Assembly (NCBI GenBank): GCA_944389925.1
Contig: CALXOD010000032.1
Span: forward strand, 1-46,772
Length of the DNA: 46,772 nucleotides
DNA from: an uncultured Victivallaceae bacterium
Lineage (GTDB): Bacteria > Verrucomicrobiota > Lentisphaeria > Victivallales > Victivallaceae
Direction of reading: 5' to 3'
The notes under the pieces were generated by a model, which did not search any database, was not told the origin of the DNA, and saw only the letters and a program-made list of their open reading frames with translations. Position 1 is the stretch's first letter; every line of letters starts with the position of its first letter. Shown here piece after piece: positions 31,888 through 35,437 of this stretch. Position numbers and translations under genes: made by a program.

Positions 31888-32817
31888 TCATCCTCGGAGA
31901 TTCCTGCGGTTCAACGCCCCCAGCAGCGCGTAAATCGCCTGCAGCTTCGGCGTTTCCACACCGTGACAACGCGCCCGCCGCAATACGTTGCCGACAATGG
32001 CTTCGACCTCCATCGGACGCCCCGCCTCGAAATCCACCAGCATGCTGGTCTTGTACGGCGGGAAGCTACGGGTATAGACCATGGTTTCCTCCAGCAATTC
32101 CGGTTCCAGCTTCACGCCCTCCGCGGCGGCGACGGCGGCGACCTCCGCCATTATATCAGCACACAAAGCTTCGATTTCGCCCCCATCGGTCAGCTCACGG
32201 GTGTTCAAACCGCCCCCAATAACGGACACCGGATTGAACGGGGTATTCCACAACAGCTTCTTCCAGCGGAAATACCGGATGTCATCCACCGCCCGGGCCT
32301 CGACGCCGACGGAGCACCACGCCTGCGCCAGTCCCGCGGCTTTTTCCGAAGGCGGCTGCCCATCACAGCGCCCGAATATCAACCGGTGAACGCCCTGATG
32401 ATTCAAATGGCATGGATCAATCCGCGTCACCCCGATATAGGCAACGGCACTGTAAATCTCATGCTCAGGGAAAGCAGCCAGCAGAGGCTCCTCGATTCCT
32501 ATTCCGTTCTGAATCAACAGCACCGCCGTATGCTTCGAAGCCAGTGCTCCCCGCAATATGACGGGAAGATCAACCTCGGGCAACACCTTGGTGGCCACGA
32601 TCACCCAGTCCGGCGTATCCGTATATTCCTCCGTCGAGCGCAGCACCTGCGACGGTCGGAAACAAAAATTACCATCCACACTGTCGATCTGATATCCATT
32701 CTGAACAATTCTCTCCCAATGGCTGCGCACCACCACCGACACCTCCGCCCCCGCCTGGGCCAACCGTCCTCCAAAATAAGCACCGACCGCACCGGCACCG
32801 ACCAGTAACACTTTCAT
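31888..32817 (-). CDS. 2-dehydropantoate 2-reductase-like protein (PanE/ApbA)
   Basis: 309 residues. The Rossmann start MKVLLVGAGAVGAYFGGRLAQAG and the later QNGIG-type segment (LLIQNGIGIEE) are of the PanE family, which reduces ketopantoate with NADPH for coenzyme A synthesis. The C-terminal helical domain carries RYFRWKKLLWNTPFNPVS (catalytic Lys region) and MLVDFEAGRPMEVEAI. Similar enzymes act on other 2-keto acids, so panE is not assigned firmly. The ATG at 32817 follows AAGGATGGGGG. The gene converges with CapA across a 54-nt gap without an obvious terminator. Confidence 0.88.
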   Translation of the reverse strand: MKVLLVGAGAVGAYFGGRLAQAGAEVSVVVRSHWERIVQNGYQIDSVDGNFCFRPSQVLRSTEEYTDTPDWVIVATKVLPEVDLPVILRGALASKHTAVLLIQNGIGIEEPLLAAFPEHEIYSAVAYIGVTRIDPCHLNHQGVHRLIFGRCDGQPPSEKAAGLAQAWCSVGVEARAVDDIRYFRWKKLLWNTPFNPVSVIGGGLNTRELTDGGEIEALCADIMAEVAAVAAAEGVKLEPELLEETMVYTRSFPPYKTSMLVDFEAGRPMEVEAIVGNVLRRARCHGVETPKLQAIYALLGALNRRNLRG

Positions 32818-32835
32818 CGCCCCCATCCTTTCCAT

Positions 32836-33075
32836 TATGCCTCATCGAAAGAGAAAAGCTTTTTCCTCTTTCATACTATACGGTTGATCGGGAAAGAAGA
32901 CAAATCCAGCATGATTCCTCGTGTCCGACAGCAAACGGCAGCTCCTCTCGCGGCCGACGTCCCGGAGGGGCGGATTTTTCACGGCTTTCCCGGTTCTCCG
33001 CTTTTATTTGGAGAATCTTGCGGTATATTACTGTATTCTGACAAATTTTACAAAAAAACAGCGAAGGTATTTCCC
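32836..33075. other. Divergent region between PanE-like and HTH-EIIA genes
   Basis: About 240 bp with no gene. The AT-rich part (33005-33070) should hold the promoter of the HTH-EIIA gene, but I could not fit a -35/-10 pair with normal spacing. Confidence 0.4.
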
Positions 33076-33738
33076 ATGTCAAATCCGCTACCGGAAATCA
33101 TGACACTGGAAGAAGTCGCCCGCTACCTGCGCGTCTCCGACCGCACCGTATACGACTGGGCGCAGCGCGGCGAAATCCCCTGCGGCAAAATCGGTACTGT
33201 CTGGCGTTTTCTCCGCCCGGAAATCGAAAAATGGGCCAGAGAACGCATCACCGCCTCCCGATCTGAAATCGACCTGTCGCCTCTGCAACTGGCCTCGGTA
33301 CTGACTCCCGGACGGGCCTTTATCATTGACTCCGCCACCAAACAGGAAATTCTGGAACAGCTGATCGAACGCCTCGCCTCCGGCAGCGAAGTCAAATCCC
33401 GTGCAGAACTCGTCAACGGCATTTTTCAGCGGGAAAAACTCATGTCCACCGGCATCGGCTTCGGCATTGCCATCCCTCATGTCCGCCTGCGCAGTGTGCG
33501 GACACTGGCCATGGCCGCGGCGCTGGTCCGGAACGGCGTTCCCGATTACGAAAGCCTCGACCAGATACCGGTGCGGTTGATCTTCATGATCATCGCCCGG
33601 GACGACCAGCACGCACAACACCTGCGGCTGCTGTCCCAGCTCAGTGCCGGACTCAAGGATGAAAATCACCGTGCCATGTTGTTAGACTGTGCGGACGATG
33701 CCGCCTTTTTTGCGGCCTTGACCGGCCGGGAGGCGTAA
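33076..33738 (+). CDS. Excisionase-type HTH fused to PTS EIIA (PtsN-like)
   Basis: 220 residues. Residues 8-58 form a MerR/excisionase-type helix-turn-helix (LEEVARYLRVSDRTVYDWAQRGEIPCGKIGTVWRF). Residues about 69-215 are a PTS fructose-type EIIA/PtsN domain. The phosphoryl-accepting histidine is His135 in GIAIPHVR, and the HLRLLSQLSAGL helix follows. No EIIB or EIIC gene is near, so the domain works as a signal module, not as a transporter. PtsN proteins with a DNA-binding domain are known from Chlamydia, a PVC relative. The ion antiporter gene starts 4 nt after the stop. I infer that phosphorylation state controls the partner or its transcription. Confidence 0.9.
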   Translation: MSNPLPEIMTLEEVARYLRVSDRTVYDWAQRGEIPCGKIGTVWRFLRPEIEKWARERITASRSEIDLSPLQLASVLTPGRAFIIDSATKQEILEQLIERLASGSEVKSRAELVNGIFQREKLMSTGIGFGIAIPHVRLRSVRTLAMAAALVRNGVPDYESLDQIPVRLIFMIIARDDQHAQHLRLLSQLSAGLKDENHRAMLLDCADDAAFFAALTGREA

Positions 33739-33742
33739 TATC

Positions 33743-35413
33743 ATGTTTCCGCACGGCGTATTGGTATTGCTGGGGCTGGCGGTTTTCGGCGGTCTGATCG
33801 GGGCGTGGATCTTTCAGAAAATCCGTTTCCCGCAGGTGGTCGGCTACATCGTCATCGGCCTGCTGCTCGGACAATCCGGCTTCGCGCTGGTCAGCGCCGA
33901 CGATATTGAAAATTTGAAAATGCTCAACCTCTTTGCGCTCGGCATCATCGGATTTCTCGTCGGCGGCGAGCTGAAATTGAGCATCTTCCGCAAATACGCC
34001 CGCCAATTCACCGCGATTCTACTGCTTGAAGGCGTCCTGGCATTTTTGCTGGTCGGTATCTCCATCGGCCTGGTCACCTGGTTTCTCGTGCACAATTTCG
34101 CCGCTGCGCTGGCCACCGGCATCATCTTCGGTGCCATCGCGTCAGCCACCGATCCGGCCTCCACGATCGACGTCATCTGGGAATACCGGGCCAAAGGCGT
34201 AATGACTACCGCCATTATCGCCATTGTCGCCCTGGACGATGCGCTGGCCATGACCCTTTATGGCCTGGGGACCGGTACCGCACAACTGCTGACCAGCGAA
34301 AAAGGCTCCATCCTGCATTCGCTGATTCAAGTCGGAGTCTCGCTGGGCGGTGCCATTCTGATCGGAGCGGTCGCGGCAGGAATTCTGACCTTGTTCCTTC
34401 GGCATCTGGCCCAGCCGGAACGGGCGGTGGCGCTTTCGGTTGGCGTCATCCTGCTGGTCATCGGCATGGCAGCGACCTATCAGCTGGACGTGATTCTCTC
34501 CACGATGATGATCGGATTTGTACTGGTCAATCTGGCGCCGCGTCGCAGTGAAGACATCTTCAAATTGCTCCGCAGTTTTTCGGTACCGATCTACGTACTG
34601 TTCTTCGTGCTGGTGGGGGCCCGGCTTGAAGTGGGCAACATGCCGTTGTGGCTCTGGGCAGTGGTCGTCCTGTATGTTGCCGGTCGCAGCATCGGCAAAA
34701 TCGTCGGTGCGTACTACGGCAGCAAATGGACGCACGGCCCGCCGGAAGTCAGCCGCAATCTCGGTATGGGGCTCTTTGCCCAGGGCGGTGTGGCAATCGG
34801 CTTGTCGATTGTTGCGGCGGAATATCTGGGCGACATTCGGTTGTCCGATCGGTTGCTGCTCAGTGACATGGTCATTTATGTTGTGACCACCACCACTTTG
34901 ATTCTACAGCTGATCGGCCCGGCCATGGTTAAGTTTGCGGTAAAACGTTCCGGGGAGGCCGGCCGCAATCTGACGGAAGAAGACGTCATGGCGCAACTGA
35001 CCGTCGCCGACGTCCTGGGCGGAGCACAACCACCGCCGATTCGGGAGGGAGACTCGGTGGAGGAAGCTGTCGCTTATTTCACCGAACATGACCTGCTGAT
35101 TTCTCCGGTAGTCGACAGCGACAACCGGATCCGCGGCATCCTGACCTTCGACGCATTAAAAAATGTACTCTCCGACCGGGATGCCTGGCGCTGGCTGCTG
35201 GTGGCCGACCTGATGACCCCGATGTTCGAATCCGCCACACCGGGGGAACGGCTTCCTGAGGTGTATCAGCGGATGCAGCAATTCAAGCTCGATCAGCTGC
35301 CGGTAGTGGATGCGGCCACGCATCAGCTTCCCATCGGCGTGATTGATCTGCGGGCCATCCGCTCCAGGGTCAATGCCGAACTGCTGCGGATTTCGGAAAA
35401 AAACGTCGCTTGA
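33743..35413 (+). CDS. Cation/proton antiporter with CBS pair
   Basis: 556 residues. About 12-13 hydrophobic helices to residue about 410 carry the ion-binding motifs ASATDPASTI and IVALDDALAM (TDP and adjacent acidic pair) of the CPA superfamily. Residues about 420-550 contain two CBS-like repeats that bind adenine nucleotides (PPIREGDSVEEAV and EVYQRMQQFKLDQLPVVD). It probably exchanges Na+ or K+ for protons in the inner membrane under nucleotide control. The gene follows the HTH-EIIA by 4 nt, and its TGA overlaps the -35 of the next gene's promoter. The N-terminus is ATG, with the GGAGG of the previous gene's end as ribosome site. Confidence 0.9.
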   Translation: MFPHGVLVLLGLAVFGGLIGAWIFQKIRFPQVVGYIVIGLLLGQSGFALVSADDIENLKMLNLFALGIIGFLVGGELKLSIFRKYARQFTAILLLEGVLAFLLVGISIGLVTWFLVHNFAAALATGIIFGAIASATDPASTIDVIWEYRAKGVMTTAIIAIVALDDALAMTLYGLGTGTAQLLTSEKGSILHSLIQVGVSLGGAILIGAVAAGILTLFLRHLAQPERAVALSVGVILLVIGMAATYQLDVILSTMMIGFVLVNLAPRRSEDIFKLLRSFSVPIYVLFFVLVGARLEVGNMPLWLWAVVVLYVAGRSIGKIVGAYYGSKWTHGPPEVSRNLGMGLFAQGGVAIGLSIVAAEYLGDIRLSDRLLLSDMVIYVVTTTTLILQLIGPAMVKFAVKRSGEAGRNLTEEDVMAQLTVADVLGGAQPPPIREGDSVEEAVAYFTEHDLLISPVVDSDNRIRGILTFDALKNVLSDRDAWRWLLVADLMTPMFESATPGERLPEVYQRMQQFKLDQLPVVDAATHQLPIGVIDLRAIRSRVNAELLRISEKNVA

Positions 35414-35437
35414 CAAATTCCCGTGCGCGTTTACATT
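35410..35437 (+). promoter_or_regulatory. Promoter of the dolichol-kinase-like gene
   Basis: A perfect -35 TTGACA (35410-35415) overlaps the antiporter stop; -10 TACATT (35432-35437) follows after 16 nt. Confidence 0.7.

Follow-up and report, generated by a model that had tools for sequence, protein, structure and literature searches.

The window considered here, a stretch of 46,772 nucleotides from an uncultured Victivallaceae bacterium, carries two genes read in the same direction and separated by 4 bases: the first encodes a protein in which an N-terminal HTH motif is joined to an EIIA domain of the PTS, and the second a CPA-family cation/proton antiporter that ends in a pair of CBS domains (Table 1). 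Both frames begin with ATG at the first position listed and finish with the last stop base at the second, and the coordinates and four-base gap given in the initial annotation proved exact when the start and stop codons were checked. The gene upstream is divergent and ketopantoate reductase-like; a promoter-like sequence lies just past the antiporter, so the transcription unit is likely to comprise only two genes here.

Table 1 Features of the HTH-EIIA/antiporter locus and related gene arrangements (positions without a prefix refer to the window; G000 is the genome from which it comes)
Feature	Position	Strand	Basis or context
Ketopantoate reductase-like gene	31888-32835	-	divergent, upstream
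Putative operator TGCGGTATATTACT, 44-57 nt before the start codon of HTH-EIIA	33019..33032	+	PWM
HTH-EIIA protein, 220 aa	33076..33738	+	Pfam domains, homologue alignment, AlphaFold2 model
HTH_17 (excisionase/MerR-like winged HTH), residues 9-57	33100..33246	+	Pfam E=3e-16
PTS EIIA_2 domain, residues 85-215	33328..33720	+	Pfam PTS_EIIA_2 E=3e-30
EIIA active His135, in GIAIPHVR	codon 33478-33480	+	invariance in homologues
CPA-family cation/proton antiporter with C-terminal CBS pair, 556 aa	33743..35413	+	Pfam, orthologues
Na_H_Exchanger membrane domain, residues 18-398	33794..34936	+	Pfam E=3e-34
Two CBS domains (regulatory tail)	35027..35377	+	Pfam CBS E=2e-13, two stretches
Promoter-like TTGACA-16-TACATT	35410..35437	+	consensus match only
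EIIA-CBS fusion (L007)	G000:C34:7525-7941		directly upstream of CitMHS-family transporter
EIIA-CBS fusion (L011)	G000:C37:17879-18307		directly upstream of CitMHS-family transporter
EIIA-CBS fusion (L010)	G000:C37:5936-6361		precedes another gene
Amino-acid permease (APC) with C-terminal EIIA_2, single chain	G000:C7:61664-62011 (L009:5186-7048)		
Na_H_Exchanger-EIIA single-chain fusion	L147:563-2644		beside window-type antiporter
Na_H_Exchanger-EIIA single-chain fusion	L093:934-3024		beside window-type antiporter
Na_H_Exchanger fusion with two EIIAs	L077:5561-8392		beside window-type antiporter
Longer Kiritimatiellales operon	L111:3302-9696, also L114, L120		other genomes

The domain composition proposed in the initial annotation, an excisionase-type HTH fused to a PtsN-like EIIA and a CPA antiporter with two C-terminal CBS domains, was confirmed by Pfam. 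The N-terminal part has the winged HTH of the HTH_17 DNA-binding regulators according to Pfam, to the NCBIfam excise domain, which scored above its cut-off, and to the AlphaFold2 model of the protein (mean pLDDT 85); a MADS1 HTH match below the cut-off was set aside as generic HTH_17 resemblance. A fold search with the model returned EIIA-Ntr (1a6j) as the top PDB match, with a TM score of 0.88 on the target. His135, recorded as intact in the initial annotation, is identical in all 27 aligned homologues, and R119, E120, S124-G128, P134 and R137 are likewise invariant. Alignment and predicted fold together give the protein the EIIA_2 fold with a phosphorylatable His expected of PTS-Ntr, although the PtsN equivalog TIGR01419 was matched at 77 bits against a cut-off of 138.7; the top NCBIfam match for the EIIA was fruA, under its own cut-off.

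The membrane domain of the antiporter has conserved TDP (136-138) and DD (165-166) motifs in the alignment. It shares the Na_H_Exchanger domain with YcgO/CvrA, the place of RCK_C and CorC being taken by the CBS pair, and it scored 37 bits versus 355 against the YcgO/CvrA equivalog NF003716. The solved NhaP-type antiporters (PDB 4czb and 4cz8) match the membrane domain with a phmmer E of ~1e-5, but their chains of ~420 aa stop where the window antiporter runs on into its CBS tail, and we know of no EIIA partner of NhaP-type antiporters. In G084 (L029/L067) and G139 (L031/L065) the antiporter was matched as two pieces, owing to an insertion, a frameshift or a sequencing error.

Profile searches of the whole assembly (2.8 Mb, 97% complete) revealed EI, two HPr (the second described as HPr-like) and, in all, six domains of the EIIA_2 family. 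The EI gene directly follows one HPr gene (C54), and its open frame of 607 aa begins at the EI N-domain, that is, by length and sequence it does not have the GAF part of a PtsP-type EI. No match to PTS_EIIC (PF02378), PTS_EIIC_2 (PF13303) or PTS_IIB (PF02302) was found in the 2.8 Mb, the search with PF13303 being a weak test since its controls barely responded; the observation in the initial annotation that no EIIB or EIIC lies near the locus thus extends to the whole assembly for these three families. With EI, HPr and EIIAs present and no EIIB/EIIC acceptor of these families found, the combination expected of PTS-Ntr, the PTS of this genome looks purely regulatory. An EIIA that cannot be phosphorylated, named earlier as a finding that would speak against PTS control, was not encountered, as His135 is invariant and the genome encodes EI and HPr. 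That the EIIA_2 family includes the fructose and mannitol EIIA, and that fruA heads the NCBIfam matches, might suggest that the EIIA donates phosphoryl groups within a cryptic sugar PTS, a reading which is largely refuted already and to which we give hardly any credence, since none of the three EIIC/IIB families searched for was found in the genome, PF02378 is absent from 40 of the 41 genomes searched (the window's own and its relatives, the exception being G186) and the closest fold is EIIA-Ntr.

Conservation of the gene pair was assessed by a GTDB-wide search of all species with the antiporter alignment, from which the 80 closest loci were picked irrespective of EIIA. Of these antiporters, 71 are directly preceded by an EIIA gene of the same strand, as HTH-EIIA in 60 loci and as an EIIA without detected HTH in 11, and the gap has a median of ~4 nt. 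Given the few EIIA genes per genome, chance would produce such pairing in about one of 80 loci or fewer. By deposited names, the paired loci come from Lentisphaerota, Kiritimatiellota/Verrucomicrobiota, Planctomycetota, Spirochaetota, Hydrogenedentota, KSB1 and Neomarinimicrobiota, about seven phyla; the pairing is missing in both Omnitrophota records and in the single Actinomycetota record among the 80 loci. Nine loci have neither EIIA form upstream at the threshold used, including L147, which has an antiporter-EIIA fusion there, and L160, with too little upstream sequence to judge. The eight of 80 antiporters without a nearby EIIA suggest that the antiporter can function unaided or be served by an EIIA from another locus.

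For most of the HTH-EIIA orthologues (45-96% identity) in 198 genomes of the class, the next gene downstream is the antiporter, and antiporter orthologues occur in 25 genomes at 27 loci, 22 of which have a same-operon EIIA upstream by our own count; several HTH-EIIAs have no adjoining antiporter (L017-L019, L024, L028 and L036). The neighbour survey called for in the initial annotation found the pairing strongly conserved both in relatives and across phyla, and no description of it was found in the open-access literature, subscription journals being outside the search. Both genes could travel together and the loci are phylogenetically clustered, as might be seen in an operon kept stable by descent or joint transfer without functional coupling, its EIIA acting on other targets; we hold this to be very improbable because the gene order is constant over several phyla at ~50% identity while the flanking genes vary, and because, in the same genome, transporters unrelated to the antiporter (CitMHS type and APC permease) likewise have EIIAs coupled to them.

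Apart from the EIIA_2 on C31, which stands alone, EIIA domains elsewhere in this genome are parts of fusions (Table 1), and the CitMHS-family transporters beside the EIIA-CBS fusions we take to be NhaD-like. The predicted fold of a natural EIIA-CBS fusion matches EIIA-Ntr and nucleotide-binding CBS pairs. EIIA and CBS domains are thus seen to recur together beside ion transporters in the same genome. The operon of G017 has the order HTH-EIIA, EIIA-CBS, CitMHS-type transporter and antiporter, and the longer Kiritimatiellales operon encodes HTH-EIIA, antiporter-CBS, a CBS protein, EIIA-CBS, a CitMHS transporter and a SulP transporter.

The promoters of the HTH-EIIA operons are 59-fold enriched in a TGCGAAAT-like motif compared with the rest of the loci. 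A PWM trained on 59 homologous promoters, excluding the window and its 96% relative, gave the site TGCGGTATATTACT in the window 13.1 bits and rank 3 of 93,544 window positions; TGCGAAATATTCA is the corresponding putative site in a relative. The whole genome contains only two copies of TGCGRWATATTNC, one in the HTH-EIIA promoter and one inside nusA. The 7-mer TGCGAAA was found upstream of 28 of 60 HTH loci and of none of 10 HTH-less ones (Fisher p=0.0045), although roughly half the HTH promoters lack it in exact form, and it may partly represent promoter sequence shared by related species. Enrichment of the motif and its rarity in the genome make autoregulation plausible, and HTH-EIIA probably autoregulates its own operon via the putative operator. 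Kiritimatiellales HTH-EIIA promoters (e.g. L104, L122 and L131) contain TGCGGTTTGATGTAGTTTTTCGCA, with inverted TGCG/CGCA half-sites and 24 nt end to end, which exceeds the 14-nt TGCGGTATTCCGCA of L163 by about one helical turn.

The presence of the HTH in 60 of the 71 paired loci, the restriction of the promoter motif to the HTH versions and an operon order of regulator followed by target gene could also be explained if HTH-EIIA were purely a transcription factor, phosphorylation altering its DNA binding and hence antiporter expression with no protein contact. We consider this unlikely, since the 11 paired loci with no HTH detected in the reading frame of the EIIA indicate that coupling does not need the HTH, other CPA antiporters form single-chain fusions with EIIA, and it is the CBS tail with which the EIIA covaries most. 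In a set of 72 pairs, the pairwise identity of the EIIA correlates with that of the antiporter CBS region at a rho of 0.61 and with that of the tested membrane stretches at 0.40-0.53; between the CBS region and the 150 most variable membrane columns the bootstrap difference is 0.21 (0.07-0.37), a value that could be too large if variable TMD columns are saturated. As the pairs share ancestry, and so are non-independent, and the variable columns may be saturated, this signal is suggestive only; it would place the action of the EIIA at the CBS tail of the antiporter, in agreement with the binding of E. coli PtsN to the C-terminal region of YcgO. Lower CBS conservation in EIIA-less antiporters (Mann-Whitney p=0.0005) was kept out of the main evidence, being confounded by their greater overall divergence, and the EIIA-less set took in L147, whose upstream EIIA sits on another antiporter.

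In E. coli, PtsN in its unphosphorylated form binds to the CPA1 K+/H+ antiporter YcgO at the C-terminal region and inhibits it, and phosphorylation of PtsN markedly weakens the contact; such PTS control of K+/H+ antiport is a recent finding in that species, and what it is for physiologically is unclear (PMC11808508). In both systems the EIIA_2 domain belongs to a PTS that has no EIIC of its own, and the antiporter is of the CPA type and has a regulatory tail at its C-terminus in the cytoplasm; phosphorylation-dependent binding to that tail, shown in E. coli, would be the third likeness. They differ in that the window EIIA carries a HTH and shares an operon with its antiporter, in that the tail is a CBS pair in place of RCK and CorC, and in distribution, the window-type pair coming largely from PVC phyla and Spirochaetota and not from Proteobacteria. 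The ptsN2 gene of alpha-proteobacterial kdp operons is likewise an extra ptsN copy located with regulated K+ transport genes, but its target is the sensor kinase KdpD and no antiporter, and a HTH was not found mentioned for it in the review (PMC13104625). LacS of streptococci and lactobacilli resembles the pair in that an EIIA-type domain, attached to a secondary transporter, controls it through phosphorylation of the domain, and differs in being a single-chain sugar symporter with an EIIA-Glc-like domain (PMC10710835). The best reading of the sequences is PtsN-YcgO-like control in a dedicated two-gene form with other regulatory domains, even though the PtsN and YcgO equivalogs were not matched.

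The computed support, namely the domains, the invariant His, EI and HPr, the failure to find EIIC/IIB, the conserved operon, the fusions and the promoter motif, makes it fairly probable that the pair is a dedicated PTS-controlled antiporter in which HTH-EIIA is a phosphorylation-gated subunit and probably also autoregulates the operon. Against this reading speak the eight antiporters with no EIIA close by, the HTH-EIIAs with no adjoining antiporter and the different tail domains of YcgO. EI and HPr would relay phosphate from PEP to His135, and the EIIA domain, made from the same mRNA as its partner, would dock on the cytoplasmic CBS tail depending on its phosphorylation state and switch cation/proton exchange on or off. 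By analogy with PtsN and YcgO, the unphosphorylated form would most likely inhibit antiport. The HTH probably binds a TGCGAAAT-like site within the promoter of its operon, in which case free HTH-EIIA would also set transcription of the pair. The initial annotation had read the locus as a module tying PTS phosphorylation to ion balance, an interpretation that conservation, the invariant His, EI/HPr and the PtsN-YcgO precedent support; the adenine nucleotides that it also named may be bound by the CBS pair.

The conserved pairing suggests that PEP/phosphate state directly controls ion exchange via a dedicated partner protein. Finding a conserved operon of this kind in phyla where sugar PTS permeases are few or absent further suggests that regulatory PTS systems may have ion transport as a main target, and an ancient one. 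The two genes also offer a compact system for testing PTS control of ion transport. More tentatively, and with some doubt on our part, HTH-EIIA could be a PTS sensor with two outputs, moving back and forth between the CBS tail and its own promoter, with phosphorylation and antiporter occupancy jointly setting both exchange and expression. If so, it would exemplify a widespread regulatory PTS of PVC bacteria and Spirochaetes, in which EIIA domains act on ion transporters instead of sugars.

The fold search with the HTH-EIIA model also returned cytoplasmic regulatory domains of human SLC4-type exchangers (5jho, 8zle, 7x1i and 8gvh), in which an EIIA-like fold regulates eukaryotic ion exchangers.
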